DNA from: Candidatus Zixiibacteriota bacterium
GTDB taxonomy: Bacteria; Zixibacteria; MSB-5A5; UM-FILTER-46-8
NCBI GenBank assembly: GCA_014730175.1
Contig: WJIR01000054.1
Location: 1-33,683 of the forward strand
Direction of reading: 5' to 3'
DNA length: 33,683 bases
Part shown: piece after piece, positions 2,246-33,683 of the stretch
How positions within the stretch are numbered: position 1 is the stretch's first letter
How the letters are laid out: each line of letters begins with the position of its first letter
Program-made: the position numbers and the translations under genes
The notes under the pieces: model-generated
The model's input: only the letters and a program-made list of their open reading frames with translations
What the model was told of the DNA's origin: nothing
Databases searched by the model: none

Positions 2246-3940
2246 ATGTATATGAATCTGAATTTTACTAAGTCCGCTGGTTTATTAATTGTAGTAGCAT
2301 TATTATTCGTAGCTTTTTTGATGACCGGAGTTGATTCGGTATTTGCCTTCGAAGAAGTATGGGTATTGGCTGATGAAATTACTAATAAGATTGAGTTAAA
2401 GGAAGCTGGTTTTCTGCATGGTATCGAAAGCGGGGAGTATCTTGAGGATAGTCTTGTTGCATTACTCAAGCCGTTAAACTGGAGGTTATACAAATTTGCT
2501 ACCCTTGATTATGCCCGTCGGTTTAATCCGAAGATCACCTATGGTATTTCGAATCACTATGCATGGTCTCATGGCGGTTTCCCTTATGCACATCCTTGGG
2601 AAGATTGGGAGGAGTATGAGAATTTCATTCTTGAGGAACTGATTTTGATTGCCGCATATTTCCCGGATGTCCATATCGAGTTTTATGATATTTGGAATGA
2701 ACCCGATCACCCTTATTTCTGGACAGGTACTTATAGTCAGTTACTTGAATTATTCGCGCGCGCACACGATATTATTAAGTTATTTGATCCGGGAGCAAAA
2801 CTCGTAGGTCCCAGTGTCTCCAGGTTTGATCCTGATGATCCCGGTGTAGCAAATGTTGTTGGATTCCTTACTGACCTGGACAGGGGATATGGAGTTCGAT
2901 TAGATGCGGTTTCCTGGCATGAAAACGGGGGTGCGTTTGAACAGGGGCCGAGACCTGAACACATCCCGAATCATGCCGGCCTAATCCGAAGCGGTATTCG
3001 AGATTATTTTCCCCCGGAGTATCAACCTGAATTGCATGTCAATGAATATGCAGGGGGACGGGTACATCTTTCTCCTGGTTGGAATGTTGGCTATTTGTAT
3101 TACCTTGGAGAAGCGCGAATAGACGGTGCCGGAAGAGCATGCTGGTGGGTATTCTCTGGAGACAATCCGCCATACGATTATTGGTCTGATTGCTGGGCAG
3201 GACTGAATGGCATGTTTATGCGGGACGGGATTACTCCTCAACCATCTTATTGGGTATACAGGGCTTATGCTGAAATGGAGGATACTTGGCGAGTTCAGAC
3301 ATTTTCCTCAGAACCCACTACTGTAGTAATAGCGTCGGAAAATAGTGAGGAAGAAGAGTTTAATTTAATAGCCGGACGGTATTGGCATATAGGAGCTGAA
3401 CAAGTTATCATTTACGTGGAGGACTATCCTTTTTTGCATGATATGGTTAACATAGCCATAGAAAAGATTCCTCACTTTCCAGAGTTCTTTGAGGATCCAC
3501 CTATCGCACAACCTCTTCCGGATGGCCCAATACCAATCGCGGCTTATAGTCAAACTGTCCTTGACAGCAGTTTGGTAATAATTATTGACTACTTCGAAAA
3601 TGGTGATGTTTATCTTATTAATATTAAAGAAAATGAAACAACAGATATTGTTGAGAATTATCCATCAACGCCTGCACATCATTCAACTGTCTTGAGAAAT
3701 ATTCCAAATCCATTTAATTCGGTTACTATCATATCGTTTGAGCTTGTTCTAAGAACCGATGTTTGCTTGACCGTCTATAATCTACTCGGTCAGAAGATTG
3801 ATAAGTTACTTGACCAAAGAATGAATCCAGGAAACCACAATATCACCTGGGATGCATCCACATACTCCAATGGGATTTATTTCTATCAGCTTGAGATTGG
3901 AAATAAAACTATAACCAAACGAATGACATTGTTGAAATAA
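2246..3940 (+). CDS. Secreted clan GH-A-like (GH39/GH5-type fold) glycoside hydrolase-like protein with T9SS CTD
   Basis: Hydrophobic N-terminus; 'EFYDIWNEPDHPYFW' (candidate acid/base Glu in WNEP) and 'ELHVNEYAGG' (candidate nucleophile Glu); C-terminus 'IPNPFNSVTIISFELVLRTDVCLTVYNLLGQKIDKLL...NGIYFYQLEIGNKTITKRMTLLK'. Confidence 0.8.
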   Translation: MYMNLNFTKSAGLLIVVALLFVAFLMTGVDSVFAFEEVWVLADEITNKIELKEAGFLHGIESGEYLEDSLVALLKPLNWRLYKFATLDYARRFNPKITYGISNHYAWSHGGFPYAHPWEDWEEYENFILEELILIAAYFPDVHIEFYDIWNEPDHPYFWTGTYSQLLELFARAHDIIKLFDPGAKLVGPSVSRFDPDDPGVANVVGFLTDLDRGYGVRLDAVSWHENGGAFEQGPRPEHIPNHAGLIRSGIRDYFPPEYQPELHVNEYAGGRVHLSPGWNVGYLYYLGEARIDGAGRACWWVFSGDNPPYDYWSDCWAGLNGMFMRDGITPQPSYWVYRAYAEMEDTWRVQTFSSEPTTVVIASENSEEEEFNLIAGRYWHIGAEQVIIYVEDYPFLHDMVNIAIEKIPHFPEFFEDPPIAQPLPDGPIPIAAYSQTVLDSSLVIIIDYFENGDVYLINIKENETTDIVENYPSTPAHHSTVLRNIPNPFNSVTIISFELVLRTDVCLTVYNLLGQKIDKLLDQRMNPGNHNITWDASTYSNGIYFYQLEIGNKTITKRMTLLK

Positions 3941-4786: not shown

Positions 4787-6796
4787 TCATTTCACGAGAT
4801 TCATTTTTTTGATAGCTACAAAATCCCCTGCTTGTAGTCTATAGAAATAGACACCTGAGGATACCGATGAAGCATCCCAGGTCACCCGATGTTCACCCGC
4901 CCTTAAATTGCCGTTCGTAATGGTCTGAACTAACTGACCGGCGATATTGTACACACTCAAGTTTACATCACCAGCTTCGGCGATATCGAAAGATATAGTG
5001 GTTTTTGCATTAAACGGATTCGGATAGTTATCAAGCAGCAAACACTCGGATGGAACCGGCTCGTTGATATCTTCCTTAAACCAATTCGATGAATTCCAAT
5101 CTACCGATCCGCCGCTTGGCGCCAACACTTCGAAATAAAAGGATGCGGAGCTAATCGGTTCAAAAGGAGCTTCGCTACATATCGCGATATATCGGTACAT
5201 CCCTTGAGGCGCATCTCCCGGAACATCCTGACTAACTCCCGGGGCGGTAAGGGTATCATGAGCTTCAATCGGGATATTGTATATCATGCTTAGCGGTCCG
5301 AATAATCCATATTCATCGGAAAAAACAAAAGTCCCCACGTTTACCGTATACGGATCACCCGTAGCATTACTCAAGGTTCCGGTGTATGTAAAACTCCCTC
5401 CTGCCGGTACTTGAACCGGAGCGTTGTCAGGAGTCATGGAAACCGCAACTGCCGGCGGTTCACCTCCACCGCCATAAGCGCCCATATCGCTGCGGAAAGT
5501 CGCTAATCCGGAATCACACCCAAGTGATGAATCGAATAACTCCGGATCTCCCGCATCTATACATGGAGAACTATATGCGTCACCGCAATAAGTAAACATA
5601 AGGTGATAATCACCATTGTCGGGATCCCTGAAAAGCGGGTCCGAATCAATATTTCCCTCGCCTTCCCATCCGCCTTTAATGTCCGAATACGATACGGTTA
5701 TTCCGGAATCATCAAGATATATCTCCGGTCCATTCGGTGCATAATTGTCATATAGTATGGAATTAGTGATATACGGGTAGGCGGAAAGATCAATATATAT
5801 TGCGCCTCCATAATCCTCCGCTGAATTATTCACGAACACATTGTTTTCCACCGGGGCATTCGTATTGAAAAGATAAATCGCTCCTCCGTTTCCGGATTCG
5901 GCTACGTTGCCGGCAAATATATTTTTTTCGAAATCCGGATAAGCGCTAAAGACGAAAACCGCTCCTCCGCCATTGGCGCCTGGCTCGGATGACTGTTCCA
6001 CTCTATTGTTGGAGAATAGGTTTCCGGTTATCGTAGCAGTCGCTTCATCATCAAGAAAGATAGCGCCGCCCTGACCTAAAACAGGCGGAAAAACAATGGG
6101 ATTGACGAAATTATTGATGATCGTATTATCAATAATCACGGGATTCGAAGAGCTGTTACAAAAAATGGCTCCTGCTCTTTGACCCGTGGAATTACCATCT
6201 ATTATATTGCCGGATATTATGGGAGAGGATGAGTCGCAATATATAGCCCCGCCCTGGTTGGTTGAAGTATTACCCCTTATGGTGTTATTCTCAATTATAG
6301 CCTCCGAGCCTTCAATAAGAGTAATCCCGCCTGCCTGGAAATAACCGGGATTGTCTTCGAGAAGGCAGCGCCTGATGGTCAGATTGCTGCCGCGAACTGT
6401 AATGGCAGAATAGAGCGCGCGGCTGATATAGCAGTATTCCATAATAGATGCATCGGAAGCATCGTGGAAATCTATGCCTAACGTGGAGTATCCTTCAACC
6501 ATAGGCAAAAAGCTGATGGAATCAGTCTCGGTACCTATCGCCTGTAAGACAGCTCCGGAGTATATCCTGAAGCTATAAGCGGCGAGGAAAAAGACTTCCA
6601 CTCCCGGTTCTATCTCCAGAGTATCGTCAGCGGAGACGTAAATCGAATCGCTTACAATGACGCTGTCCGCGCTCCAGACTCCGGAAACTTCCCCGGTAAC
6701 AAAAATGGCATCGGCCGCAGCAACCGAAGGTATAATCAGCGCCAAAATTACGGCACAAAGCCATACCTCAGCACGATTCTTAAGAAAATGTAACAT
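4787..6796 (-). CDS. Secreted right-handed parallel beta-helix repeat protein (GGAIY repeats, 'SPCIDAGDP' anchor-like motif) with T9SS CTD
   Basis: Repeats such as NNTIRGNTSTNQGGAIYCDSSSPIISGNIIDGN; N-terminal 'IFVTGEVSGVWSADSVIVSDSIYV...LEIEPGVEVFFLA'; CTD 'DNYPNPFNAKTTISFDIAEAGDVNLSVYNIAGQLV...SSGVYFYRLQAGDFVAIKKMNLVK'; SD GGGAG upstream of ATG at 6796. Confidence 0.92.
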   Translation of the reverse strand: MLHFLKNRAEVWLCAVILALIIPSVAAADAIFVTGEVSGVWSADSVIVSDSIYVSADDTLEIEPGVEVFFLAAYSFRIYSGAVLQAIGTETDSISFLPMVEGYSTLGIDFHDASDASIMEYCYISRALYSAITVRGSNLTIRRCLLEDNPGYFQAGGITLIEGSEAIIENNTIRGNTSTNQGGAIYCDSSSPIISGNIIDGNSTGQRAGAIFCNSSSNPVIIDNTIINNFVNPIVFPPVLGQGGAIFLDDEATATITGNLFSNNRVEQSSEPGANGGGAVFVFSAYPDFEKNIFAGNVAESGNGGAIYLFNTNAPVENNVFVNNSAEDYGGAIYIDLSAYPYITNSILYDNYAPNGPEIYLDDSGITVSYSDIKGGWEGEGNIDSDPLFRDPDNGDYHLMFTYCGDAYSSPCIDAGDPELFDSSLGCDSGLATFRSDMGAYGGGGEPPAVAVSMTPDNAPVQVPAGGSFTYTGTLSNATGDPYTVNVGTFVFSDEYGLFGPLSMIYNIPIEAHDTLTAPGVSQDVPGDAPQGMYRYIAICSEAPFEPISSASFYFEVLAPSGGSVDWNSSNWFKEDINEPVPSECLLLDNYPNPFNAKTTISFDIAEAGDVNLSVYNIAGQLVQTITNGNLRAGEHRVTWDASSVSSGVYFYRLQAGDFVAIKKMNLVK

Positions 6797-6974: not shown

Positions 6975-8615
6975 CTATTTCAAAAGCGTCATCCGCTTTG
7001 AGATGACTTTATCTCCGGCGGTTAGTCTGTAAAAATATACGCCGCTGGAGTATTCGGATGCATCCCACTTAATGCTATGTTGACCTGCCTGCAAATTTCT
7101 ATCCACCAAAGTCGCTACCTGCTGTCCCAACACATTATAGACCTCCAGATTCGTCTTACCTGATTTCGGCAGGTCGAATGTGATGGTAGTCTGAGCATTG
7201 AAGGGATTAGGGTAGCTGGATATAAGAGCATATTCCGAAAGGATCGTTTGCTGGAACCATCCTCCTTCCAGGATCCAATCATCGCTGCCACGAACAAGAG
7301 GTTCTTCTTCTACTCTGACCGTAAAATAGGTGGAGTCGATGATATCCGGTTTTATACCTGTATAAGCAAGGTAGTAATAGTAACTTATCGGGGCATTGTT
7401 CGGGATATTCTGATTCATGTGAGCGCTTATCGATTGACCCGGATTCAACGGAATATCAGGGAATTCCCACAATTCATAGAAAACGCCTGCATATTTCACG
7501 CCGCCCCATACATCGGCTACAGTCATTGTATCAACAATATTTGTTATAGCGCCGGTAAAACCGAATGAACCGCCCGGAGGTGCAACAATCGGCGGATCAT
7601 CATCAGGAACCATACCGATTTCTACAGCCGGAGGATGAACAGGATTATGCGCTACGCCGAGTTCGCCGTAGGGGCTGCCGAATACGAAATTGAGACCATC
7701 TGCTGAAAATTCAACATCATAAGCCGGCTGATCATAGAATTCCATCAGGCTGCCGTCCTGAGTGTTCCAGAACTTAATTTCCAGGCTGAAGGTGGATAGC
7801 GAAGCATCGCGTCCGCACGAGATAAGTACATCGCCGTAAGGATAGTAATCCAGCCCGAATAAATTATCACTGAAGGCGTCAATGGTGCGCATCAATTCCC
7901 CATCGCTGATTCTCCAAATGTCTATAGACGAAGCTCCGGAAGCCAGGTATAAGCCATCAGGTGAAAACGCGAGTGTGTTAGATTCACCCGGGAACTCATC
8001 AAACAATCCACCGCTGCGTGTGTTATAAAGCTTTATAGTGTTATCGCTTCCGCATGTAGCTACTATGGAGGCATTTGGAGAGATCGCGATATCGTAGATA
8101 TAATTGCCTGTATAGGCTGACATAATCTCCTCTCCGGTTTCGGCATCGAAAACACGGAAATACCTGTTTATGCCGCCGCCACCTGCTGCTACATATTCAC
8201 CATTTTCAGAATATGAAACGTAAGCTCCGCCTCCCTGGAATAATATCGTTCCCGACTCAATATCCCGATATTTGGTATTCCCGCCCGGAGGATAATCAAT
8301 CACTACGTAACCGGTCGCTAACATCTCGTTATTGGGCGATATATCCACCGATACCGTACTGTGGTCATGTCCGTCAAAGGTATGAAGAAGGGAGCCGTCC
8401 GATGCATCCCAGATTTTGGCGAAATCTTCTGCGCAGGTGGCAATAAATTGACCGTCATTGGAGAAATCAACGCTATTGACGCTCCCATCCTGTGGATCAT
8501 GTATCCAGACCAGTTCGGGTTCGCCGCTTGCCATCGCCTGGGTCAAGAAAAAGGCAGCCAATGCGACGGTTAGAAAGGTGATCTTCCCGATTGAATGTTG
8601 CATACAGAGTTTCAT
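6975..8615 (-). CDS. Secreted WD40-repeat beta-propeller protein with T9SS CTD
   Basis: WD40-like repeats (VNSVDFSNDGQFIATCAEDFAKIWDASDGSLLHTFDGHDHSTVSVDISPNNEMLATGY; 'IAISPNASIVATCGSDNTIKLYNTRSG'); CTD 'SSYPNPFNAQTTITFDLPKSGKTNLEVYNVLGQQVATLV...SSGVYFYRLTAGDKVISKRMTLLK'; SD AAGGAG 7 nt from ATG. Confidence 0.92.
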   Translation of the reverse strand: MKLCMQHSIGKITFLTVALAAFFLTQAMASGEPELVWIHDPQDGSVNSVDFSNDGQFIATCAEDFAKIWDASDGSLLHTFDGHDHSTVSVDISPNNEMLATGYVVIDYPPGGNTKYRDIESGTILFQGGGAYVSYSENGEYVAAGGGGINRYFRVFDAETGEEIMSAYTGNYIYDIAISPNASIVATCGSDNTIKLYNTRSGGLFDEFPGESNTLAFSPDGLYLASGASSIDIWRISDGELMRTIDAFSDNLFGLDYYPYGDVLISCGRDASLSTFSLEIKFWNTQDGSLMEFYDQPAYDVEFSADGLNFVFGSPYGELGVAHNPVHPPAVEIGMVPDDDPPIVAPPGGSFGFTGAITNIVDTMTVADVWGGVKYAGVFYELWEFPDIPLNPGQSISAHMNQNIPNNAPISYYYYLAYTGIKPDIIDSTYFTVRVEEEPLVRGSDDWILEGGWFQQTILSEYALISSYPNPFNAQTTITFDLPKSGKTNLEVYNVLGQQVATLVDRNLQAGQHSIKWDASEYSSGVYFYRLTAGDKVISKRMTLLK

Positions 8616-8654: not shown

Positions 8655-8694
8655 TTACGGAAAGTTTACTTAAGTAAAGTCATCCTTTCCGTAA
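8655..8694. repeat. Nested palindrome overlapping the stop codon of the 8666-10579 gene
   Basis: TTACGGAAAG (8655-8664) ... CTTTCCGTAA (8685-8694) enclosing the 14-bp palindrome TTTACTTAAGTAAA (8665-8678), which contains the CTT AAG TAA end of the CDS on the minus strand. Confidence 0.75.
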
Positions 8695-10579
8695 ACACCT
8701 TGTCTCCGACAGTGAGTCGGTAGAAGTAAACTCCGCTGCCATAATCGGAGGCGTCGAATTTAATATTGTGCTGGCCTGCGGAAATTTCCCTATCGATTAA
8801 TGTTTCGATATTCTGCCCCAGTAAATTGTAAATGCTCAAGTTTACATCACTCTCGACCGGCAAATCGAATCTTATGGTAGTAACGGCGTTAAATGGATTC
8901 GGATAGTTGCCCACAAGAGCATAGTCGCTCGGAATTCCACTATCAAAATCCCAGCCGCCTTCCAGATTCCATTCCGTAACGCCTCGAGCCAATACGTTAC
9001 CTGTCACATTGAATTCGAAAGTCGCCATATCGCAAACCATCCAGCCGTTGTAATCACCACAAAATGCGTTGTAATCATATTGACCGGTCGGAGCGGTCAT
9101 CGGCACACTCTGATTCATGTGAGCCTGTATATATTGCCCGGGTGAGAGATTGATGTTGCGGAACTGCGCAACCTGAAACGAAAAGCTTTGATAATTAACG
9201 GTGACCCATACATCTGTTACGATTGATGTATCGCGCGGATTGCCGACTATCCCTGTCAGTCCGAATGCACCGCCGGGAGGAACGTTGATCGGATATTCGT
9301 CCGGTTCCATCTCAACATCACAGCAAAATGCTTCGACAACACTGAAGGAGAAAGTATCGCTAACCGAAACATAGCCCATGTCATCGGTCGCTTCGATATA
9401 ATAAAACACCTCGGTTCCCCAGGATTGCCCTGGTATCGTGCCTGAGTAGTTGTCGCCCTGGTTGCTCATGCTGATATCCATGTAGCCGGAGCCGGCATCG
9501 TAATAAAGATCTGCAAAATCGATGTATCCATCGGGATCGGTGATGGTTGCAGATACTTCAACATCTTCCATATTTCCGGGCTCATCGGGAGTATGATCGA
9601 TATTGCTGAACTGCGGAACTCCAATCACCCCGCCATACGCGCCCATATCGGCGCGCATTTCGCCTAATCCCCAATTACAATCGTGAATGCGATCTATATA
9701 CTCGGGATCGCCGGCATCTATACAGGGCGAATATTGCGCATCGCCGCATTCCATGGAATCCTGAAGGTGATAGTCGCCATTATTGTGATCGCGGAATAGA
9801 GGATCGGTATCGATATTGCCCTCGAGCCAATCTATAGAAGCATACCCAATTAGCTGAACGGCATCGTAAGTATTGGAATAACCAATTGCAATTCTTCCGG
9901 GTTGGAAGGTATTCCCCTCTACCCTGATTCCATAATCCCAGTTGAAGGCAGAGACACTGTTGATTATCAGCGGAAGTCCACTTCCTTTGTGATAAAATCC
10001 CCCGGGGTCATTTCCCGAGATAGTTACATGATTTAAGACCGGGGAACCTGAGCGATTATCGAATCCGCCGTGAGAAAGTGCTTCATTGTTATATATGACA
10101 ACGTTTTGGAAAGTAGCATTAGAAGCAGCACAATAGACTCCTCCTCCGAAATCGTCGGCGAAATTATCGGTTACGTAGAGATTTCGTAGAATGGGATGAG
10201 CACTGGCCAGGTATATGCCGCCGCCTTGAGATTCGGGCCAGGGAGGTTGTGCATTACCGTGAGTAATAGTGAATCCGTCGACAACGGTAGCGCTCGATAT
10301 AACGTTAGCATCTTCGAAACGGATTACGCTACCAGCGTTATTCCCATCAATAATAGTATTTTCCTTCGACTCGCCGAATAATTTTATTCCGTTAATAGAG
10401 GGCCATGTTAAATTCTCGTAATATACTCCTGCCGTCACCTGAACTGTATCACCAAAGGATGCAGCATTAAGCGCATCCTGGATGGCGGAGTAATCTCCTG
10501 GAACATGGATAACAGTAGCTTGCACGGAGAAGCAGCAAACCAGAAAGATGACTACAATTAATGCGGTTATTCTGTGCAT
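8666..10579 (-). CDS. Secreted parallel beta-helix protein with T9SS CTD
   Basis: ORF track starts at 10597, but the second Met (MHRITALIVVIF, ATG at 10579) has an AAGGAG SD 8 nt upstream and begins a signal peptide. 'SPCIDAGDPEYIDRIHDCNWGLGEMRADMGAYGG'; CTD 'GNYPNPFNAVTTIRFDLPVESDVNLSIYNLLGQNIETLI...GSGVYFYRLTVGDKVFTERMTLLK'. Confidence 0.9.
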   Translation of the reverse strand: MHRITALIVVIFLVCCFSVQATVIHVPGDYSAIQDALNAASFGDTVQVTAGVYYENLTWPSINGIKLFGESKENTIIDGNNAGSVIRFEDANVISSATVVDGFTITHGNAQPPWPESQGGGIYLASAHPILRNLYVTDNFADDFGGGVYCAASNATFQNVVIYNNEALSHGGFDNRSGSPVLNHVTISGNDPGGFYHKGSGLPLIINSVSAFNWDYGIRVEGNTFQPGRIAIGYSNTYDAVQLIGYASIDWLEGNIDTDPLFRDHNNGDYHLQDSMECGDAQYSPCIDAGDPEYIDRIHDCNWGLGEMRADMGAYGGVIGVPQFSNIDHTPDEPGNMEDVEVSATITDPDGYIDFADLYYDAGSGYMDISMSNQGDNYSGTIPGQSWGTEVFYYIEATDDMGYVSVSDTFSFSVVEAFCCDVEMEPDEYPINVPPGGAFGLTGIVGNPRDTSIVTDVWVTVNYQSFSFQVAQFRNINLSPGQYIQAHMNQSVPMTAPTGQYDYNAFCGDYNGWMVCDMATFEFNVTGNVLARGVTEWNLEGGWDFDSGIPSDYALVGNYPNPFNAVTTIRFDLPVESDVNLSIYNLLGQNIETLIDREISAGQHNIKFDASDYGSGVYFYRLTVGDKVFTERMTLLK

Positions 10580-10797
10580 TCTTAGAACTCCTTTCATACT
10601 CGGTTTTACAACATAGGTCGATTTAAAATTTGAGCGCGAATTTGTATGTGCTGTATGAAGAAAACCGGATGGTATTTAGTGTGTAATACGTAATTCCTTA
10701 ACTATTGGATGGGATAAAACGTTCCGCGTCTATCCGATACTTGATTGATACTTCTTACATGAATGTTGTACTGTCTCTTATATATGTGAAAAATATT

Positions 10798-12972
10798 TTA
10801 TTTCAAGACCGTGATTTGCTTGGTTAGGTGATTTGTACCGGCCGCCATCTTAATAAAATATATCCCGCTTGAATGGGAGGATGCATTCCAGCTTATGGTA
10901 TGTCTCCCCGCTTCTTTTCGGCCCGATATCAAATTTTCAACTCTCTGGCCCCTCAGATTATAAATATCCAGAGAGACTTCTTCCGCTTCCGATAACTCAA
11001 ATGAAATCTGCGTGGATGCGTTGAATGGATTGGGATGGTTGTTGATTAATACATGGTTTACCGGCGAGTTTTTGTCCGCCGAGGCTTCTTCGTTTTTATC
11101 AAACCATTCTGATAGAGTCCATTCCGAGGTTCCATTTGCCAGAGGAAATGTGACTGTGAATCCGAATTCCGCCGAATCTGTTTTCATATCCGGAAATTCA
11201 CCACAAAATGCTCTATATCCGTAGATACCACTCGGCGCATACATGGGAATGTTCTGGTTTACGTTAGAAATTATAATCTCTTCCTGGGCATCGAGAGGCA
11301 CATCATTGAATTGCTTGATAGGACCGTAAAGATTGCCATCGGGCAATATCAGATTAACCCAAACATCGGATGTCATCATCTGATTTGTGTTATTCTTTAG
11401 ATATCCCTCATACCGGAAACTGCCGCCGGCAGGGACGCTAATAGGTGCATCTTCGGGAGTCATGGAAACAATAAGTTCGTACTGTCGAAAATACTTTGCT
11501 CCCATATCGGATATAGTGCCGTCTGGATCATTGGTATCGGGATCACCGGTATCGATGCAGGGCGAAGTATGCTGGAGATCGAAATAACCGTTATCGGGGT
11601 CAACAAAGCGCGGATCCGCATCGATATTGCCCATACCGCTCCATCCTCCTTGAATATCAGAATAAGTTACTTCCACCCCGGATGCTTCCTGCCAAATCTG
11701 AGAGCCTTCTCCGGCGCTGTTAAAATATATTATGGAATTGGTAATGATCGGACCGGAAGGTGAAAGACAGTGAATACCCCCGCCGAAGTCAGGAGCGATA
11801 TTATAGGCGATCGTGTTTTTATCCATCATCGGATAACCAAATTCCATGGATATTCCGCCACCGCTGTAATCCACGGAACGGTTGTTGGTAATAATATTGC
11901 CTTCGAATACGCCGCTGCTGCAGAATTCGATATAAATGCCCCCGCCATATTCGCCGGCTGTGTTACCATCGATAAGATTGTCCTCGAGAACCAAATCATG
12001 GCAACCGACATAGATGCCGCCGCCATGGTTATGTTCGACCGTATTGTCGACAATAGTATTGTTAGCAAGAGTTACGTTTATATCGCTGGTGCGAATATAG
12101 ATTCCGCCGCCATACCCATCGGAATTCGCGCCCCAAACAACAGTATTGCCGCCTATGATATTTTCAGCAATAAGGATATCGACTCCATTATTATCTTCAA
12201 TGTATATTCCGGCACCGTATCCATACACCTGAGAGAATATACCGGAAGGATCGGCTAAATTGTCCAATATAACATTGCCTGTGATCTGCGGACCGGATTC
12301 AATGCAGCATATACCGCCGCCGTAAGCAGAGGTGAGATCACCGACCACATTGTTCTGTATCGTATTTCCCGTAATAATTGGAGAGCTCTGATAGCTGTAG
12401 ATTCCACCGCCGCGCTTATTAGACTCATTGTCGCGTATTGTATTCCCTTCGATAAGCGCATCAGAACTATTTTTTAATTCGATAGCGCCACCGCCGGAGT
12501 TGTTAGCCGAATAAGCATGACAGCTATCGATCAGACTATTCCGAATGGTGATGCTGGAATTATCACAGCGAATACATGACCAGATAGATTTCTTTAGATG
12601 GCAGTACTCGAGTGTGGTTTGATCAGAACAGCTTAAAAAGTCGAATCCCAACAATCGCTGTTCCGGGGTGAAGGGCCGGAATTCTATTGTATCCTGCTGA
12701 GTACCGACCGCATGTAATATCGCATTATTATCGATTACAAATGCGGTAGATCCCAGAAACAGAACTTCGGTTCCGGGTTCAATCGTTAACATCTCGCCAT
12801 CAGGGATACGTATTGAATCGGTTACAACTACAGTATCGGCGCTCCAAGTTCCGGATACATCGCCGTTTACGAAGATTGCGTCTCCATAAGCAGACTGTAA
12901 AAACAAGAAAACGAAAACCGGTATAATTGCAAATAAGTATTTACACGATGATTTGACAATTAGTGGAGACAT
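10798..12972 (-). CDS. Secreted right-handed parallel beta-helix repeat protein with T9SS CTD
   Basis: ORF track starts at 13014; start revised to 12972 (MSPLIVKSSCKYLFAIIPVFVFLFLQSAYG) because AAAAGGAG lies just upstream. Multiple GGGIY beta-helix repeats, 'HTSPCIDTGDPDTNDPDGTISDMGA', CTD 'NNHPNPFNASTQISFELSEAEEVSLDIYNLRGQRVENLI...SSGIYFIKMAAGTNHLTKQITVLK'. Confidence 0.9.
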   Translation of the reverse strand: MSPLIVKSSCKYLFAIIPVFVFLFLQSAYGDAIFVNGDVSGTWSADTVVVTDSIRIPDGEMLTIEPGTEVLFLGSTAFVIDNNAILHAVGTQQDTIEFRPFTPEQRLLGFDFLSCSDQTTLEYCHLKKSIWSCIRCDNSSITIRNSLIDSCHAYSANNSGGGAIELKNSSDALIEGNTIRDNESNKRGGGIYSYQSSPIITGNTIQNNVVGDLTSAYGGGICCIESGPQITGNVILDNLADPSGIFSQVYGYGAGIYIEDNNGVDILIAENIIGGNTVVWGANSDGYGGGIYIRTSDINVTLANNTIVDNTVEHNHGGGIYVGCHDLVLEDNLIDGNTAGEYGGGIYIEFCSSGVFEGNIITNNRSVDYSGGGISMEFGYPMMDKNTIAYNIAPDFGGGIHCLSPSGPIITNSIIYFNSAGEGSQIWQEASGVEVTYSDIQGGWSGMGNIDADPRFVDPDNGYFDLQHTSPCIDTGDPDTNDPDGTISDMGAKYFRQYELIVSMTPEDAPISVPAGGSFRYEGYLKNNTNQMMTSDVWVNLILPDGNLYGPIKQFNDVPLDAQEEIIISNVNQNIPMYAPSGIYGYRAFCGEFPDMKTDSAEFGFTVTFPLANGTSEWTLSEWFDKNEEASADKNSPVNHVLINNHPNPFNASTQISFELSEAEEVSLDIYNLRGQRVENLISGRKEAGRHTISWNASSHSSGIYFIKMAAGTNHLTKQITVLK

Positions 12973-12990
12973 TTGGATACTCCTTTTAAG

Positions 12991-13105
12991 GCAGTTAAAA
13001 AACTTTTGGTTCATTTAAAACTTTATCTGCAAAATTACGTCTATTGGCCAAAACCTCTCAATACGTAATACGAAACATAGTCTCGATTGGATGTTTTTTA
13101 ACTGC
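12991..13105. repeat. 13-bp perfect inverted repeat pair with 89-bp spacer
   Basis: GCAGTTAAAAAAC (12991-13003) and its reverse complement GTTTTTTAACTGC (13093-13105). Confidence 0.6.
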
Positions 13106-13140: not shown

Positions 13141-16100
13141 TTATTGAGTCTGTTGTTCAATCACCGCAAGTTCATTCGTCGCAATGAATAGAATTAGCTT
13201 CTCTCTTACGGGCTGGTTGGTGCATATTCTCCAGGCTCTGGCGTATAATTCCAATTGAGGGGCATACTTCTTTACGAGCGTTTCCGTCTTGCCAATACCC
13301 GTTTTATAATCGACCAGCGTCCATCCATCATCTTCATAGAAGACTAAATCGATTGTACCCCGGACAATTACAGGTTTGGAAAACCGATGCTCCTCACCCA
13401 GTAAAATCTGGAAAGGAACCTCCGTAAAACATCTGTCGCTGTTCTGTGCTCGCGTCCAGATTTCAGATTGCATCACGGACCTCACCAACTCCACCGCTTC
13501 AGTAGCGAAATCAATATGGATATCATTTTCTGCAAGTACCGCTTTGGCGGCGTCCTCAAGTTCGGTGATACCGCTTTCCATTGCTATCTGCAGCAGCGAA
13601 TGTATGGCAGTTCCCCATTCTGTTCCATGTTCTCCTGCGGACTCAATACCGGTTTCGCTTATCGCAGTATCTCTGGTCATTTCGTAGGCAGCATCTTCAG
13701 CGAAATATTCACGCGCCATGAATTTTGCCGTAGAAGATAGATAGGTCGGACGGCTGATAATTCGGTGCTTTACGGCTATTTCATCGAGTTCCCATATCAT
13801 TTTCATTGTATCGAGCATGGCTTCCTGCTCCCTATCGACCGGCTTCACATCGGGATCACCAACCTCGGGGGCATCATTCAAATGCTCTTCGAAATGTTGC
13901 CATGGATTATGTCTCCGATGACGTCCCGCTGTCTGCAATGTAACCACCATCGCCGAACATGCCCGGGTAGCAGCGACATAACGTAATCTCAAAACATCCG
14001 CATCCTGAAACTCTGCCTCTATTTCAGCTAACTCATCCCAGCGCGGAGGTTGCGCCAACTTTCTATTCCCGTATCCTAATACGGGCATGTATCCTTTGAC
14101 CTTATCGCCGAATCGATTAATATGCAATTCCGGTTCACGCTCCTTCTCTCCAAAAGGATTAGCTAAAAAGATCACCGGAGCTTCCAATCCTTTTGCCTTG
14201 TGCAGATTCATTATTCGGACAGCGGGTATTTCGTGGGAATGGATCGAGATACCATCGTATTTCTCTTCCATATCGGTTAGTTGCCGCATATAATCGACAA
14301 TCTGGGATACACTCCAGGTATCAGCCTGAGCATTTCGAAGGATCTCAATTGCTTTCGCCAGGCTCCCTGCATTCTGATCACCTTCGGGAATCGAACAGCA
14401 TTGAGCCATCAAACCGAGGTCAGCTACAACCTTTTCGATAGTGGTGATAGGAGGATGCACGGAAAACCATCGAGCGTATCTTCTCAGTCGAGAGAATGTA
14501 TCGACAAACACCTGCCTGTCATTATCCGGAAGTGTATCGGGGACCACTCCTGTATAGACGAATTCCCCTCCATGCTTTTTAAATCTGTACAGGGAGACAT
14601 CACTGATACCGAAAAGCTCGCTGCGCAGGGTCGCCACCAATGCCACCGGATTCTCGGGATGTACAACCGCATTCAAGCAATGGTAAAGCAGCTTCAGTTC
14701 GAATACTTCATTCAAAGCGCTGCCGCCGGTAACGTGATGCGGTATCCCGTACTCCTGAAGTTTGCGCGCATACAAGCTTAGGTCACGACGATTCCTGGTA
14801 ATAATCATGAAATCATCGGGACCGGCTTCGGGAGAAACACCGTTTTCTATCTGAGATATTGTCCGGGAAATTAACATTTTGAGATCGATAGCTTGCTTGA
14901 TAATCCTTGCGATACGGTCTGCTTCGTATTCTACCGAAAACTCCCTTTTTGCCAATTCACTCGGGATACGAAGTGAGAATACTGTGGAGTAATCAGCTTT
15001 ATTCCCTTCTACCCTCCCGGTGTTCAAAGGAACATAAGCGGGGGATTGGGGAGAATGAGTAGCCGGAAAACGATTCCCTCCGGACGCTGGTTGCTCCCCG
15101 TTGGATTCATCCGGCTCGAAGACTCGATTAACCCAGTCGATTATCGATCCAATTGTTCGGAAATTGGTCGAAAGCTGGAGTATTAATCCATTATCCTGCT
15201 TACCGATGATATCCTTAACCTCGTTGTAGGTTACGATGTCAGCGCGACGGAATCGATAGATGGACTGTTTGGGGTCTCCCACGACAAATAACGCGCCCGG
15301 TCGCGGTTTGCATTTCCTCCAGTTGGTTTCATGAATGTTGTCCGCAGTCAGTAAATGCATCACCTCGGCTTGCACCGGATCGGTATCCTGGAATTCGTCA
15401 ACGAGTAAATGGGTATATCTTCGGCTGAAATACCTGCGAATATTAGGCTTGTCGCGAAGAAGCGATGCTGTTTTCATAAGGAGGTCCTGAAAATTCAGAA
15501 GTCCACGAGAATGCCGGAGGTGATCATATATCTCTTTCGCACCGAGCATGGCGCGAATAATCGGTTTGTAGCGAAGCTCCCGCCATATCCGCAGCAGCGG
15601 TTCAGCTACATCGTCACGGAAGCTGTCCCATCTATCCCTCTCAGCTATGGCTTCCTCTTTGCTGAAGTTACCGGTCTTCACCCATTCCTTTTGCACCAGC
15701 TTAATTTTAAAATCGAAAAACGTAAGGATTTCCATTAATTCCACGGGCTCCATCCTGTGCTTGTAATGGGAGACGATACGAGGAATTCTAAGATAATTTG
15801 GTATTAGGCTGTCGTTCCCCCATTCGGATGGCAACCGGTATCGGAGTTCCTCCATGTGCTCTATATACCTCATAACTTGATGCATCACCGGCTCCGGATC
15901 CGGCAATCTCAGGTCGTCATCGGGCAATTCCCAGTACTCAACATCCGGGTAATCCGCAAAACGCTGGAAAGTATCCGCAAGCTGTGATAACTGCAATCCG
16001 TATTGATTGAGTTCGGATAGGATGGTATCACTTTCGTCGGTGAACAGTCGTGCGCTGTACAGCTCCCAGGCCTCGGCTCTAAGTCGAGAATCACTCTCTT

Positions 16101-16515
16101 CATCGATCTCCGTAAAGGATAGATCAACATTTGCTTCCACCGGACGCTCCCGCAGTATTCGTGCGCAGAAAGAGTGGATGGTGCCTACAAAACACTGCTC
16201 GATGTTATCGAGCGCCTGGATTAAATTTTCCTTTTCTTCTCCCTCGGTTTCCCTGATTGCTTTCTCCAACTCGACCTGAAAGCGTGATCTCAATTCAGCC
16301 GCCGCTTTACGCGTGAATGTTACCGCCGCCATCGTCCGGACATGTTTACACTCTCCGCTTTTAATGAGCGCAATCATCCTTCCTATCATGCTGGTCGTCT
16401 TACCGGTGCCGGCGGCGGCTTCTACCAGTATATTTTTATCAAGCTCCGTTAATATCATATCGCGCTGAGTTTGATCCGCCAGAGGGGGAAGCTTCTTATT
16501 CGACTTACTACTCAT
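13141..16515 (-). CDS. addA: UvrD/Rep-type helicase with C-terminal PD-(D/E)XK nuclease, AddA-like
   Basis: Walker A 'VEAAAGTGKTTSM', Walker B 'LLVDEFQDTDPVQ', 'VVGDPKQSIYRFRRAD', C-terminal RecB-family nuclease 'GTIDLVFYEDDGWTLVDYKTG...YAPQLELYARAW'. Confidence 0.9.
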   Translation of the reverse strand: MSSKSNKKLPPLADQTQRDMILTELDKNILVEAAAGTGKTTSMIGRMIALIKSGECKHVRTMAAVTFTRKAAAELRSRFQVELEKAIRETEGEEKENLIQALDNIEQCFVGTIHSFCARILRERPVEANVDLSFTEIDEESDSRLRAEAWELYSARLFTDESDTILSELNQYGLQLSQLADTFQRFADYPDVEYWELPDDDLRLPDPEPVMHQVMRYIEHMEELRYRLPSEWGNDSLIPNYLRIPRIVSHYKHRMEPVELMEILTFFDFKIKLVQKEWVKTGNFSKEEAIAERDRWDSFRDDVAEPLLRIWRELRYKPIIRAMLGAKEIYDHLRHSRGLLNFQDLLMKTASLLRDKPNIRRYFSRRYTHLLVDEFQDTDPVQAEVMHLLTADNIHETNWRKCKPRPGALFVVGDPKQSIYRFRRADIVTYNEVKDIIGKQDNGLILQLSTNFRTIGSIIDWVNRVFEPDESNGEQPASGGNRFPATHSPQSPAYVPLNTGRVEGNKADYSTVFSLRIPSELAKREFSVEYEADRIARIIKQAIDLKMLISRTISQIENGVSPEAGPDDFMIITRNRRDLSLYARKLQEYGIPHHVTGGSALNEVFELKLLYHCLNAVVHPENPVALVATLRSELFGISDVSLYRFKKHGGEFVYTGVVPDTLPDNDRQVFVDTFSRLRRYARWFSVHPPITTIEKVVADLGLMAQCCSIPEGDQNAGSLAKAIEILRNAQADTWSVSQIVDYMRQLTDMEEKYDGISIHSHEIPAVRIMNLHKAKGLEAPVIFLANPFGEKEREPELHINRFGDKVKGYMPVLGYGNRKLAQPPRWDELAEIEAEFQDADVLRLRYVAATRACSAMVVTLQTAGRHRRHNPWQHFEEHLNDAPEVGDPDVKPVDREQEAMLDTMKMIWELDEIAVKHRIISRPTYLSSTAKFMAREYFAEDAAYEMTRDTAISETGIESAGEHGTEWGTAIHSLLQIAMESGITELEDAAKAVLAENDIHIDFATEAVELVRSVMQSEIWTRAQNSDRCFTEVPFQILLGEEHRFSKPVIVRGTIDLVFYEDDGWTLVDYKTGIGKTETLVKKYAPQLELYARAWRICTNQPVREKLILFIATNELAVIEQQTQ

Positions 16516-19500: not shown

Positions 19501-19621
19501 CACGGGTCACCGAATCCAGCCACTGATACCCCACCCGCAAAGTGGGGGCGATAAGGTGCTTGGTTGAGAGATTAAAATCCTTGATGAGATTTGATAACGT
19601 TCGTATATACCGGTTAACCAT
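16508..19621 (-). CDS. addB: PD-(D/E)XK nuclease family protein, AddB-like (inactive helicase domain)
   Basis: Overlaps the downstream addA start by 8 bp (ATGAGTAG). C-terminal 'LSASRLETLGRCPMEYFFRYVLGIELPEE', 'RARGRIDRIDEVKGSDSKQLIVWDYKTG', 'QNVLYLEML'. N-terminus lacks a Walker A ('KHLIAPTLRVGYQWL'). Confidence 0.82.
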   Translation of the reverse strand: MVNRYIRTLSNLIKDFNLSTKHLIAPTLRVGYQWLDSVTRAGQPVLNVHVDTLKKSALDIALPEIQRRGFKYLSGIQAEILVNGIFAGLQREGKGYLTNLDISQGLVERMVGSINDLRLAGISSESLNTSGFEVDIKANEIKRLLALYEAELERRKLVDYADILRISAERLRGNPGGDVLYLIPEDMEHDLKGLEREYWESIPDDQRVILEVDKPDELPSGKASDASLLRFISDPKSAPLPSEDGTARIFRAVGEVNEVKEVLRFCHEQNIPFDDVEIIHTNRETYVPLIYEIMSGLKTEDKDETHVTFAEGIPIRYSRPGRAVIAWLNWIEEGYPQATLVRMIQDGLLMIEADSPEKVNYTEFANILRTVPIGAGKERYLAKIDEEITAYRKRIEYRYKTEEQDDETDDIEEYARKIDKLGFIRRLVEQLLSCCMDKNYNRKFLAGIRDFLGSNVRSIDRMDQYAREYIEDTIKELMDNLEDDTIEGLNILEWLIDILYYQGVEGKGPRPGCLYVAPLHIGGHSGRKHTFIIGLDDARFPGSGGQDPILLDDEREGLSDNLTTSRTRVEKRLDDFAFLLSRLRGHVTLGYSCRNLIDDREMFPSPVLISAFRVLSGNAEGDYEQFINWVSDPVSFAPGSPSRCIDSTEWWIWKLSGDKSYSNAQAILHEQFPHLKRGAIAMEARGSDRFNEYDGYVPEAGADHDPTRPDAPVLSASRLETLGRCPMEYFFRYVLGIELPEEFEIDPSVWLDALQKGELLHSVFKTFMYQLRSQDSLPVFKRDLKLLHDILDREIEKWREIQPPPNIDVYNQQVKELRTAAMIFLYEEEDYCKDYIPLYFEASLGLKPEEEGTPLDVDEPVEIMLPSRKVIRARGRIDRIDEVKGSDSKQLIVWDYKTGSARSYDLLDPFMNGRRIQNVLYLEMLKSRLRQLKSPARIKKFGYYFVSQREHGERIEWDADQLEQGKEALQHLCDLMASGCFPFTDNPDDVKFSDYIFTVNSVADLASCAADKLQNPDNAVLNPFTTLRDYPTEEEDE

Positions 19622-22372: not shown

Positions 22373-22380
22373 GGTGACGT

Positions 22381-28470: not shown

Positions 28471-28472
28471 TT

Positions 28473-28928
28473 TTAACCTGTCCGCCTACTCACAATTATT
28501 TCTTCGCCTCTGATTGCTACATCATAAGCTTCCAACGGTGAAGGGGGAGGACCCGAGATATTCCTCCCGGTTAAATCGAAGCGCCCATTGTGGCACGCGC
28601 ACCAGATATCACCTCTTGTAGGTTCGTATTGCACCGTACATTGAAGATGTGTACAAACAGCTGAGAAAGCCCGATAATCTCCCCCGCTGGTGTAAACTAA
28701 AATCCCTGGTTTCGTTCCAAATTTAAAAATTTTCCCGGAATTTTTCTCTAATTCGCCTACTTTGGCCGCCACGATAGTATTCCGGACAGCCTCCGGTTTA
28801 TCCGGTGGATAAATAAATCTGATTATGGGATAGATGGTGGCAAGTATTAATGTGCCGAGGCTACCCGTTAGCAGCCAATTAAGCAAGCTGCGTCTTGTTT
28901 TTACTTTACCTTCCATTGTGAAATTCAA
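28473..28928 (-). CDS. Rieske [2Fe-2S] protein of a cytochrome bc-type complex
   Basis: N-terminal TM '[22 protein letters not shown]'; Rieske boxes 'CTHLQC' and 'CACHNG' in '[48 protein letters not shown]'; 2 bp upstream of cyt b. Confidence 0.94.
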
Positions 28929-29386: not shown

Positions 29387-31411
29387 ATGAATTCCAAATT
29401 AGCTAAATGGGGCTTGTTTGCCATTGTCAACTTTTCGGCATTATTATACTGCTGGTCGATATCGACTGCTGAAGTGGTTTTTGTGAGTGGTGATGTTTAC
29501 GGTGTCTGGGATGCGGATACCGTTGTTGTTACAGACTCCTGTCGGGTTCCTCCCGACCAGACTTTGACGATCGAACCGGGAGTCCACGTGATGTTTATCG
29601 GATACTGGGGATATACATTTCTGATCGATAATAACGCAACTTTGCTTGCTGTAGGAACTGAAACGGATTCCATAAAATTCCTGCCGTTTACCGAGGGCAA
29701 TTATCATCAAGGTTTGACTTTCCTGAGTTCATCATCGAATTCAATTCTGGAATATTGCCATATACGGCGCTCTATTTCGTCCGGCGTATATTGCGATGAT
29801 GTGGATCTGACGATCCGCAATTGTCTAATCGATAGCTGTGAAACAAACTACGGCAGAATTGAGGGGGGTGGCATCACATTAATCAATGGATCCGAAGCCT
29901 TAATCGAGTACAATGCATTCAGAGATAACTATGCCCACGATGCAGGAGGCGCTATTTACATCGTTGACTCGTCGCCAACGGTTGCAATGAACTTGATCGA
30001 GGATAATCATGCGGGACTTCGCGACGCCCTTGGCGGAGGGATTTATATCTATGGAGATAGTAATCCTTCGGTTGAAAAAAATATCATCAGAGGTAATGCA
30101 GTTCATCCCAGTTCTTTATTCAGCGACGCTGTTGGACTCGGGGGAGGAATCTTTATAGGCACTTACTGCGCGCCGCATATCTTGAATAACATGATATTTG
30201 ATAATTATGGAACGACAGGTCCGTCGGCTCTTCCATTTGGAGGCGGAATTTATTCGGCTACTTATTATGAAGAATGTATAATATCCGGCAATCTCATAAT
30301 AGGAAATTACCTGGAAGAAGGTTTAGTGGAGGAGAGTAATGGTGGAGGAATATATCTTGGATGGTCGGACGCAACCGTGGAGAATAACACAATAGCATAC
30401 AACTCCGCGCCCGGAGGTTACGGAGGCGGTATCTATGTTGACGAATGGGCCAATCCTGCTATAAATAACAGTATTATTTATTTCAACAGCGCCGGTTTGG
30501 GCCCTCAGATCTACGAAGAGGAAAGCGGCGATGCTTTTGTTACCTATTGCGACGTAGAAGGCGGTTGGAATGGTACCGGGAATATCAGCGAAGACCCTCT
30601 TTTCGTCGATCCCGAAAACGGTTATTACGAACTTCAGTACGCCTCCCCCTGCATAGATGCGGGTGATCCAAACATTAATGATCCTGATGGCACGGTTTCC
30701 GACATAGGCGCTCTGTTTTTTCATCAGGGAGAACTTATCGTGTCGATGGTTCCCGACGGCGCTCCAATCAGTGTGCCCGCAGGCGAACGCTTCGCCTACG
30801 AAGGATACCTGAAAAATAACTCCAATCAGATGAGGCTCGCCGATCTATGGATCGAGTTGATTTTACCCGATGGATCTCTTTACGGACCGATCAAGAGATA
30901 TAATAACGTGCCCATTGAAAGCCAGGAAGAAATAATTATTCCCGTGGTTTACCAGAATGTACCGGTTTATGCTCCTCTGGGTTTATACGGTTATAGAGCG
31001 TATTGCGGCGATTACCCCGATATGAAAGTTGATTCCGCCGAATTCGGATTTTACGTGACCTCTCCCGCTCCAGCGGGCAGTAAAAGCTGGGAGGTCGATG
31101 GATGGTTCAGAAACTCCGAGTTTACCGATGAGGATGAAAATTTGACAGCTACTCAGGTTAGCTATGGGAGTTATCCTAATCCATTCAATGCGCGAATAAA
31201 TATTGAGTTTGACCTGATTCGGGATGCAGATGTCCAGCTCAAGATTTACAATGTTGGTGGGCAGCTTGTTAATGATTTAGTCGATAGGTATATGGAGTCC
31301 GGAAAACATGTTATTACCTGGGATGCGGCTGATACGCCGTCCGGCATATATTTCTACAAGTTATCAATTGGGAATGACACTTACGCTCAGCGAATCACGC
31401 TGGTGAAGTAA
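29387..31411 (+). CDS. Secreted right-handed parallel beta-helix repeat protein with T9SS CTD
   Basis: ORF track starts at 29366 (TTG); ATG at 29387 (MNSKLAKWGLFAIVNFSALLYCWS) with GGAGGA SD at 29375-29380. GGAIYI/GGGIY repeats, 'ASPCIDAGDPNINDPDGTVSDIGA', CTD 'GSYPNPFNARINIEFDLIRDADVQLKIYNVGGQLV...PSGIYFYKLSIGNDTYAQRITLVK'. Confidence 0.91.
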   Translation: MNSKLAKWGLFAIVNFSALLYCWSISTAEVVFVSGDVYGVWDADTVVVTDSCRVPPDQTLTIEPGVHVMFIGYWGYTFLIDNNATLLAVGTETDSIKFLPFTEGNYHQGLTFLSSSSNSILEYCHIRRSISSGVYCDDVDLTIRNCLIDSCETNYGRIEGGGITLINGSEALIEYNAFRDNYAHDAGGAIYIVDSSPTVAMNLIEDNHAGLRDALGGGIYIYGDSNPSVEKNIIRGNAVHPSSLFSDAVGLGGGIFIGTYCAPHILNNMIFDNYGTTGPSALPFGGGIYSATYYEECIISGNLIIGNYLEEGLVEESNGGGIYLGWSDATVENNTIAYNSAPGGYGGGIYVDEWANPAINNSIIYFNSAGLGPQIYEEESGDAFVTYCDVEGGWNGTGNISEDPLFVDPENGYYELQYASPCIDAGDPNINDPDGTVSDIGALFFHQGELIVSMVPDGAPISVPAGERFAYEGYLKNNSNQMRLADLWIELILPDGSLYGPIKRYNNVPIESQEEIIIPVVYQNVPVYAPLGLYGYRAYCGDYPDMKVDSAEFGFYVTSPAPAGSKSWEVDGWFRNSEFTDEDENLTATQVSYGSYPNPFNARINIEFDLIRDADVQLKIYNVGGQLVNDLVDRYMESGKHVITWDAADTPSGIYFYKLSIGNDTYAQRITLVK

Positions 31412-31844: not shown

Positions 31845-33683
31845 CTACTTCAACAATGTCATCCTCTTTGTGATATCCACATTACCGGAGGTCAACTTGT
31901 AGAAGTAAACGCCGGAAGCATGTTGAGAGGCGTCCCAGCTTACGGTGTGCTCTCCAGCGTCCCGATATCCATCCGCCAGCTTGGTCACCAAACGTCCGGC
32001 TATATCATAAACCGACAAAGTAACGTGTCCGGCATTGGATAGTGAATAGCTTATACTGGTTGTTGCATTGAACGGATTGGGATAGTTGCCTAACAGGGAT
32101 GACTCCACGGGCAAGGAACCCTGAGTTTCCCCTCCGTAAAATGATTCCATCGTACCCCAGCCATTCTCTGCGATCGTAATCGTTTTGTTGTCATCACTTA
32201 TCACCGCAATACCCGGCGCTACTACTTCGATGTCCCAGTAGTCTTCAGACCAGAATGGCGTAGGAAATCCTTCACCGATGCGAGCATAATATCTGTAAGT
32301 ACCTGCCGGTACATTGCCGACCCACTGAGGAACATTGTTAAATGACTGAGTCTGTCCCGTATTAAGCGTGATCGCTTCTGGTCCGATCATCGGTTCGTAG
32401 ATCTGACCATCGGGAAGCCGTTGCACCGCAGTCCATCCCATGAAACTCTGAGATGTCGATTCGTTGTTGGTAACTTCCACGTCAAATCTGAACTGAGACT
32501 GAGGAGGAATCTCCATCATATCCGAAGAGATATTCACGGTCACATCCGGTATTTCGCCACCTGTTGTGAGTTTTGCCGAATAGAATTCCGAAGGTATATT
32601 TACCGAACCAGCGAAATAAATATCATCCATATCATCTATATAAATACCGTGTCCCCGATTTGACGATCCGGAGTTGACGGTAACTGAGTAATCCAGAACA
32701 CTGCCGTCGTGATTGAATCTGGACACGAATATTTCCGCAGCGGTGTCAATTCCGTTGGGAGGAAAATTAGGGGAGGTTGTATAGCCAACCACGTGCACCC
32801 TACCTTCGCTGTCAATAGCGATATTACGGCCTTCTTCAATATCATTTCCGCCCAGATATGTGCAGTAGATTAAACCTTCGCCTTCTGTCGATAATTTTGC
32901 CGCGAAGGCATCGTCGCAATTGTAGTCACCCCCAAAAGGTATCTCACAGCCCAGAATCTCACCCACGAATTCTTCCTGGAAAGCCCCCGGAGTGGTCGGG
33001 AAATTAATTGACCGGGTCGCACCGCTGATATATACATATCCATCCGAATCGAGCGTCAATCCACCCAATCGATCAAAATCCTCTCCGCCGAAATAGGTGC
33101 TGAACATTAGTGTTTGCCCATCAGATGAGAACTTGGATATGAAAATATCATGCGCATCCGCCTGAATCGGATCGACCAGCGGGAAATCCTCCGCATTGGT
33201 TTCACCCGCAATTATGATATTTCCATCAGAATCGAGTTCGATATTCTCGGCGATATCATCTTTGTATCCGCCATAATAGGTGCTATACAGTATGGAATCA
33301 CCTGCCGGCGTCAACTTGGTAATGAAAACATCCTTGTAAATATAAAGCGGTGCGTTAGGTTCCGGTTGGTAGGCGTCCTCGGTCACAGGGAAATCAGTGG
33401 ACTTGGTGTATCCCGCAAGATAAAGTTCGTCAGCATCGTTAATAGCCAATGCGTAACCCAGATCTGTATAATCACCTCCGAGGAAAGTGCTGTAGAGTAT
33501 CGATCCATCTTCCGGAGAGAATTTGGTTAGGAAGATATCCCTAAAACCGGTCAATGTATTATCGAATGCATCCGGCGTAGTCGGGAAATCTTCGGAACCG
33601 GTCCAGCCGATTACCCACACATCACCGTTACTATCCAGCTTAATATCCTCGGGTTGATCATGCTCCGCTCCGACGATGAATCG
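31845..33683 (-). CDS. Secreted SBBP-repeat beta-propeller protein with T9SS CTD (5'-partial, extends beyond window end)
   Basis: Open through the end of the window (RFIVGAEHDQPEDIKLDSNGDVWVIGWTGSEDFPTTPDAF...). Repeats of the type 'LDSDGYVYISGATRSINFPTTPGAFQ' and 'SILYSTFLGGDYTDLGYALAINDADELYLAGYTKSTDFPVT'; CTD 'GNYPNPFNATTSISYSLSNAGHVTLSVYDIAGRLVTKLA...ASGVYFYKLTSGNVDITKRMTLLK'. Confidence 0.92.
   Translation of the reverse strand, partial: RFIVGAEHDQPEDIKLDSNGDVWVIGWTGSEDFPTTPDAFDNTLTGFRDIFLTKFSPEDGSILYSTFLGGDYTDLGYALAINDADELYLAGYTKSTDFPVTEDAYQPEPNAPLYIYKDVFITKLTPAGDSILYSTYYGGYKDDIAENIELDSDGNIIIAGETNAEDFPLVDPIQADAHDIFISKFSSDGQTLMFSTYFGGEDFDRLGGLTLDSDGYVYISGATRSINFPTTPGAFQEEFVGEILGCEIPFGGDYNCDDAFAAKLSTEGEGLIYCTYLGGNDIEEGRNIAIDSEGRVHVVGYTTSPNFPPNGIDTAAEIFVSRFNHDGSVLDYSVTVNSGSSNRGHGIYIDDMDDIYFAGSVNIPSEFYSAKLTTGGEIPDVTVNISSDMMEIPPQSQFRFDVEVTNNESTSQSFMGWTAVQRLPDGQIYEPMIGPEAITLNTGQTQSFNNVPQWVGNVPAGTYRYYARIGEGFPTPFWSEDYWDIEVVAPGIAVISDDNKTITIAENGWGTMESFYGGETQGSLPVESSLLGNYPNPFNATTSISYSLSNAGHVTLSVYDIAGRLVTKLADGYRDAGEHTVSWDASQHASGVYFYKLTSGNVDITKRMTLLK

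Follow-up and report, generated by a model that had tools for sequence, protein, structure and literature searches.

An Ig-like domain family shuffled onto T9SS cargo ahead of the type A sorting domain in Candidatus Zixiibacteriota

On a contig of a Candidatus Zixiibacteriota genome, proteins of different fold share a segment of approximately 120 amino acids just ahead of their C-terminal sorting domain, which raises the question of what this segment is and what it does there. The window, that is, the whole stretch of 33,683 nucleotides analysed here, corresponds to contig C316 of a genome that totals 3.6 Mb in 328 contigs. Eight of the proteins encoded in the window have a type A T9SS sorting domain (CTD; PF18962/TIGR04183) at the C-terminus, and six of them carry the segment, hereafter the module, 19 to 52 amino acids upstream of the CTD, with PF18962/TIGR04183 above the cut-off in all six open reading frames. 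Five such segments and a weaker version in an SBBP protein had been quoted in a sequence-only reading of this DNA, and all were found as described there, with correct coordinates and sequences. The features are located as follows.

5090..5455, minus strand: Ig-like module preceding the CTD in the beta-helix protein 4787-6796 (HMM E 4e-50; E 4e-34 and 1.5e-33 with profiles built without window copies)
7272..7631, minus strand: Ig-like module preceding the CTD in the WD40-type protein 6975-8615 (HMM match, also with profiles without window copies)
8963..9328, minus strand: pre-CTD Ig-like module, CC-type with four Cys, of the beta-helix protein 8666-10597 (HMM match, also with profiles without window copies)
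11113..11481, minus strand: Ig-like module preceding the CTD in the beta-helix protein 10798-13014, used for structure modelling (HMM match, also with profiles without window copies, and model)
30731..31096, plus strand: Ig-like module preceding the CTD in the beta-helix protein that starts at 29387 (HMM match, also with profiles without window copies)
32184..32549, minus strand: divergent Ig-like module preceding the CTD in the SBBP propeller protein 31845-33683, which is open at the window end (40 bits, E 8e-12, profiles without window copies)
4787..5026, minus strand: T9SS type A CTD (PF18962/TIGR04183) after the module (profile above cut-off)
6975..7214, minus strand: T9SS type A CTD of protein 6975-8615 (PF18962/TIGR04183 above cut-off)
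8666..8905, minus strand: T9SS type A CTD of protein 8666-10597 (PF18962/TIGR04183 above cut-off)
10798..11037, minus strand: T9SS type A CTD of protein 10798-13014 (PF18962/TIGR04183 above cut-off)
31172..31411, plus strand: T9SS type A CTD of the protein starting at 29387 (PF18962/TIGR04183 above cut-off)
31845..32084, minus strand: T9SS type A CTD of the SBBP protein 31845-33683 (PF18962/TIGR04183 above cut-off)
11038..11112, minus strand: predicted disordered linker between module and CTD, the expected place of CTD removal (pLDDT < 50 at model residues 129-143)

Test profiles were built without the window copies, either from 71 copies elsewhere in the same genome or from 23 copies of other genomes, and both recovered all six window copies, five of them at E-values of 6e-32 to 4e-43 and the SBBP copy at about 8e-12. 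Since the best E-value among 400 shuffled control proteins was 0.3, chance resemblance is ruled out. The same outside-only search showed the module to be absent from the window CTD proteins 2-1267 and 2246-3940, the latter having a glycoside hydrolase 39-like passenger followed directly by the CTD. The passengers behind the module were indeed of different fold, right-handed beta-helix, WD40 and SBBP all being found, and the earlier description of them requires two corrections: protein 8666 has an extra, unrelated segment between helix and module, and proteins 10798 and 29387 are paralogous in the passenger too and not in the module alone. These two beta-helix paralogues (10798-13014 and 29366-31411) are approximately 67% identical in the module and just upstream of it, while their linkers are 23% and their CTDs 43% identical; the CTD of this pair appears to have undergone faster divergence or exchange. 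Elsewhere in the window, inspection by eye revealed large adjacent open reading frames at 13141-19621 (a putative AddAB-type helicase/nuclease pair), a putative heavy-metal RND efflux pair at 20831-25449, composed of a membrane fusion protein with a Cys/His-rich N-terminus and a CzcA/CusA-like pump, and genes for a multihaem cytochrome c, a cytochrome b and a Rieske protein at 26099-28928 (a putative alternative bc complex).

The AF2 model of the module, obtained with an alignment of 29 sequences, showed an all-beta fold of eight strands and no helix (pLDDT 95.7, pTM 0.84), and the best PDB match in Foldseek was the CARDB Ig-like domain of PF1109 of Pyrococcus furiosus (3idu_B; TM 0.64/0.71, E 6.5e-6). 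The Ig-like nature suggested earlier was thus borne out as a confidently predicted all-beta sandwich with CARDB as its closest solved fold. Although CARDB (PDB 3idu/2kl6) is also an extracellular Ig-like sandwich, its profile matched none of the 29 module members at E ≤ 1. The searches of Pfam and NCBIfam revealed weak matches, with at most one of the 29 members matching any one family; Big_14, RbmA-like FnIII and Transglut_C, which are Ig-like as well, were each matched by a single member (E 0.003-0.04), inconsistently. The PDB sequence search gave a best E-value of 0.27. With no consistent match, the idea that the module belongs to a known family of Pfam, NCBIfam or the PDB was rejected, and the named Pfam domain of known role that the sequence-only reading had itself set against its proposal was not found, as no family fits. 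No useful match was obtained in viral fold library, phage or plasmid searches. The neighbouring CTD is an Ig-like sandwich too, but the module is always upstream of it and never its replacement, and a duplicated CTD was rejected as its origin because the hhalign profile-profile probability was 0.4%.

Foldseek, which gave its best E-value to CARDB, also aligned the module with RbmA of V. cholerae (TM 0.70 by query length), and the single match to RbmA-like_FnIII had an E-value of 0.003. These matches are in line with an adhesive or glycan-binding role, in which the module would bind a polysaccharide or another cell and give the secreted proteins a common binding function, like the RbmA FnIII with the biofilm matrix. 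However, Ig-like sandwiches are generally alike and one weak match in 29 members is near chance, so that we consider this role rather improbable. Across 77 paralogues, the nearly invariant positions included, in the numbering of the 10798 copy, P9, P13, G19, F22, G26, N30, D39, W41, Q76, P79, A82, P83, G85, Y87, Y89, G94, F106, F108, V110, and W121. A four-Cys subclass starts with CC, and a late Cys was present in 26 of 26 CC-type copies as compared to 5 of 43 copies not starting with Cys, a pattern which suggests that class-specific disulfides may form in the CC-type modules.

The distribution of the module was surveyed in two phyla, Zixibacteria and LCP-89. At least 150 module matches (202 first-look candidates) were found in the genome of the window, and 52, 74, and 64 scored matches in three other genomes of its family. 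The nearest named genomes that carry the module all belong to Candidatus Zixiibacteriota, and one more distant match is from the candidate division LCP-89. Among 132 Zixibacteria genomes, the module was abundant in only two families (4 of 4 genomes of one and 2 of 2 of the other), and three further genomes had a single match each, one of them in a genome with 9% contamination (G057) and two of them weak. Of 39 LCP-89 genomes, 11 carried between 46 and more than 140 copies (46 to at least 114 in the phylum-wide count, and 146 in genome G132), and 28 carried none. As genomes have either no copies or tens to hundreds of them, the distribution is all-or-nothing.

The module is tightly coupled to the CTD. 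Among the at least 150 module and at least 150 CTD matches listed for the genome of the window, at least 95 module matches had a CTD 45-99 nt downstream. The stretches of this genome that were read contained 106 distinct module copies, of which 97 had a visible ORF end, many ORFs being truncated by MAG contig ends. In 84 of these 97 copies, the CTD was located within 60 amino acids of the module; five copies were upstream tandem members, followed by a second module and then the CTD, and in six another domain stood between module and CTD. Because 11 of the 97 copies are thus not next to the CTD, a strictly CTD-proximal role is not universal. The ORF ended in the CTD in 95 cases, in a divergent CTD-like 'FPNPF...' domain, to which the CTD profile gives 7 bits, in one (L055), and was frame-broken in one (L062). 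No intact CTD-less protein with a module was found among the 97 copies, and in LCP-89 every module with a visible ORF end preceded a CTD, except for one with an in-frame stop (L133). The proposed association with the CTD therefore held in both phyla, and modules in proteins lacking any CTD, which had been named as evidence against it, were not found in these sets.

The CTD, in turn, does not always come with the module. The 109 CTD proteins of the genome with enough upstream sequence comprised 79 with an adjacent module and 30 without, and in the latter propeller passengers often ran directly into the CTD. In G048, a related Zixibacteria genome without the module, beta-helix passengers adjoin the linker and CTD directly, and these proteins share the terminal motif of the window protein 4787 (SPCIDAGDP...RSDMGAYGGG). 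These architectures indicate that the module is an optional insertion between passenger and CTD. The secretion apparatus itself is encoded in the genome, with SprA (SprA_N E 8.6e-31) and PorU (T9SS_sortase 715 bits, cut-off 420), and SprA was found in 9 of 9 genomes tested, while in 10 of 10 PorU scored higher than its cut-off. A T9SS need for the module was rejected, as CTDs were found in all 132 Zixibacteria genomes and the module in bulk in six, in addition to the 30 own CTD proteins that lack it. A general role in T9SS recognition, which the sequence-only reading had offered among its possible functions, would make the module part of the signal as an extended CTD, and it could draw on the tight physical linkage and on a W-x(2,8)-W motif that trails the module in 48 of 79 linkers, as compared to 2 of 30 linkers without module. 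This role was disfavoured and is held to be very improbable, because 126 of the 132 CTD-bearing Zixibacteria genomes have no more than a stray copy, the same genome has CTD proteins without it, module and CTD are not homologous, and elsewhere in bacteria the CTD alone is enough for secretion (PMC12618676). Of the other functions offered in that reading, surface attachment, a stalk or a part in folding are candidate roles.

The module was found behind a wide range of passengers. Seventy-three module-bearing passengers of the genome matched 73 Pfam families, which include beta-helix, FG-GAP, DUF5122, SBBP, WD40, S8, M14, C1 and C25 peptidases, and Omp28; since FG-GAP, Omp28, C25 and propellers were also found in cargo without module, the module adds a property that is not specific to the passenger. 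In the 73 proteins, module similarity was unrelated to passenger homology (Mantel r -0.01, p 0.63) and weakly related to CTD similarity (Mantel r 0.18, p 0.018), showing that the module is truly shuffled and in agreement with the mobility proposed from the window. Module pairs of 75-84% identity occurred behind passengers without BLAST similarity at E 1e-3, and in the pair L048/L036 the identity was 32% upstream, 84% in the module, 42% in the linker and 61% in the CTD, with the drop at the module edges. In these high-identity pairs, synonymous sites were near or at saturation, and dN was 0.11-0.21 in the module as compared to 0.21-0.34 in the CTD, a comparison biased by the selection of the pairs for high module identity; over all pairs, paralogue identity was lower in the module (39%) than in the CTD (50%). 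Low module dN at saturated synonymous sites indicates that the shuffling is mostly old and that strong purifying selection acts on the module whatever the passenger. Recent gene conversion was rejected for most of the 75-84% pairs, given the saturation of their synonymous sites. In one pair, L064/L076 (contigs C253 and C5), the modules are 87% identical with dS 0.79 and the CTDs 45% identical with dS 3.06, and there a later module exchange or gene conversion may have occurred.

High copy number, shuffling and confinement to some families of two phyla would also be expected of a functionless filler, a stable Ig-like domain spread through cargo genes by recombination without a specific role. The invariant or nearly invariant positions in the 77 paralogues (e.g., N30, F22, Q76, P79, G85, Y87, and W121) and the low-dN pairs, however, indicate selection, and no copy in an intact CTD-less protein was found among the 97 copies with a visible ORF end; we consider this explanation improbable. 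That the module represents a new family of Ig-like, CTD-linked, shuffled domains is, on the other hand, very probable.

An Ig-like domain ahead of a T9SS CTD is already known from the gingipains (RgpB, Kgp) and PPAD of Porphyromonas gingivalis, where it likewise stands between the passenger and a type A CTD. The crystal and SAXS data on RgpB revealed an Ig-like IgSF domain before the CTD, an unstructured linker and no fixed orientation (PMC4804311). The AF2 model of module, linker and CTD similarly showed two sandwiches, and the low pLDDT (< 50) at linker residues 129-143 together with an overall pTM of 0.57 predicts no fixed orientation of the module towards the CTD. In the gingipain and PPAD proteins the flexible linker is where the CTD is removed (PMC4804311), and the module linker is predicted to be disordered. 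The two differ in that the module has approximately 120 amino acids and the IgSF approximately 85, and in that the module is a shuffled family serving tens to hundreds of unrelated passengers. No RgpB, Kgp or PPAD chain was present among the PDB sequence matches to the module at E ≤ 10, nor were these proteins among its 50 best Foldseek matches, which include CARDB. What is new here is a family without Pfam or NCBIfam entry, the use of a single shuffled module on the majority of the T9SS cargo in a genome and, in two candidate phyla, a spread that is all-or-nothing. The open-licence literature yielded no paper that connects Zixibacteria with T9SS.

In RgpB, the CTD is removed by PorU and the anchor attached concurrently, and the authors suggest that the IgSF is a spacer or insulator (PMC4804311). 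Applied to the module, this would mean that it separates the passenger from the CTD, so that the CTD can dock to the translocon and PorU can reach the linker, and a partner of its own would be unnecessary. The order of domains and the predicted flexible linker are the same as in the RgpB IgSF-CTD, and the median distance from the end of the module match to YPNPFN is 22 amino acids. Nevertheless, 30 of 109 own CTD proteins, often propellers directly before the CTD, and the related G048 with the same beta-helix passengers manage without an adjacent module, 11 of 97 copies are not CTD-adjacent, and passive spacing leaves unexplained the 75-84% identity at saturated synonymous sites, which implies a constraint beyond it. 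We therefore regard spacing as unlikely, though as the strongest of the alternatives.

The reading we favour, with a probability of roughly 0.45, is that the module is a shared surface attachment or stalk domain and the last folded domain after removal of the CTD; it is ranked above spacing, followed by adhesion, filler and recognition in this order. The cargo would cross the outer membrane via SprA with the CTD as guide, and the CTD would then be cut off by PorU within the disordered linker of 20-30 amino acids, cleavage at this place being inferred from P. gingivalis (PMC4804311). The Ig-like module would remain as the domain at the C-terminus of the mature protein, close to the membrane and at the site of anchor attachment; by a conserved interaction it would keep a wide variety of passengers on the cell surface or within a surface layer. 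The constancy of the module across unrelated passengers, and the fact that the 11 non-adjacent copies are still found only in T9SS cargo, favour the binding of a partner over spacing, although they do not prove it. A bolder version of the attachment reading, which we consider doubtful, is that the module acts as a general tag for surface attachment in these lineages. Independent of the signal for T9SS export, this second signal would be shuffled onto any cargo and would fix the destination of the exported protein, retention in one surface layer, via a single conserved receptor or lattice; if true, this would be a diderm counterpart of the Gram-positive SLH, WxL or sortase-anchored modules.

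A module standing between very different secreted proteins and the surface tag suggests a common handle for holding or presenting surface proteins, and it bears on the open question of what decides the fate of exported type A cargo. Natural comparisons are offered by cargo with and without the module in one cell, and by a passenger that carries the module in one sister family and lacks it in another. The module represents a very large extracellular domain family, which occurs in two uncultured FCB-type phyla and has no entry in Pfam or NCBIfam, and naming it would allow annotators to recognise a class of T9SS cargo in these phyla.

Some variants of the C-terminal arrangement were also observed. 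The L055 protein (C288, 494-3853) ends in an extra Ig/FN3-like domain and the divergent CTD ('VFPNPFRLK...GKIIVIR'), which may be a further CTD subtype. Two recurring domains stand between module and CTD in L185, L077, L150 and in L183, L184, L056, namely a flavodoxin/ThuA-like segment (LVWSNYNFAD...) and another segment starting with 'DFEDVPEQYWYFGGGQNLGGFY'. The frame-broken module-CTD gene of L062 (C269:16739-17095) has intact paralogues. L089 (5555-6565, minus strand) has another Ig-like segment ahead of the CTD (FRLTINNTGLNSWQDVWAEIYP...), which differs from the module, is followed by a W...W trailer of its own and is possibly a remote relative of the module.
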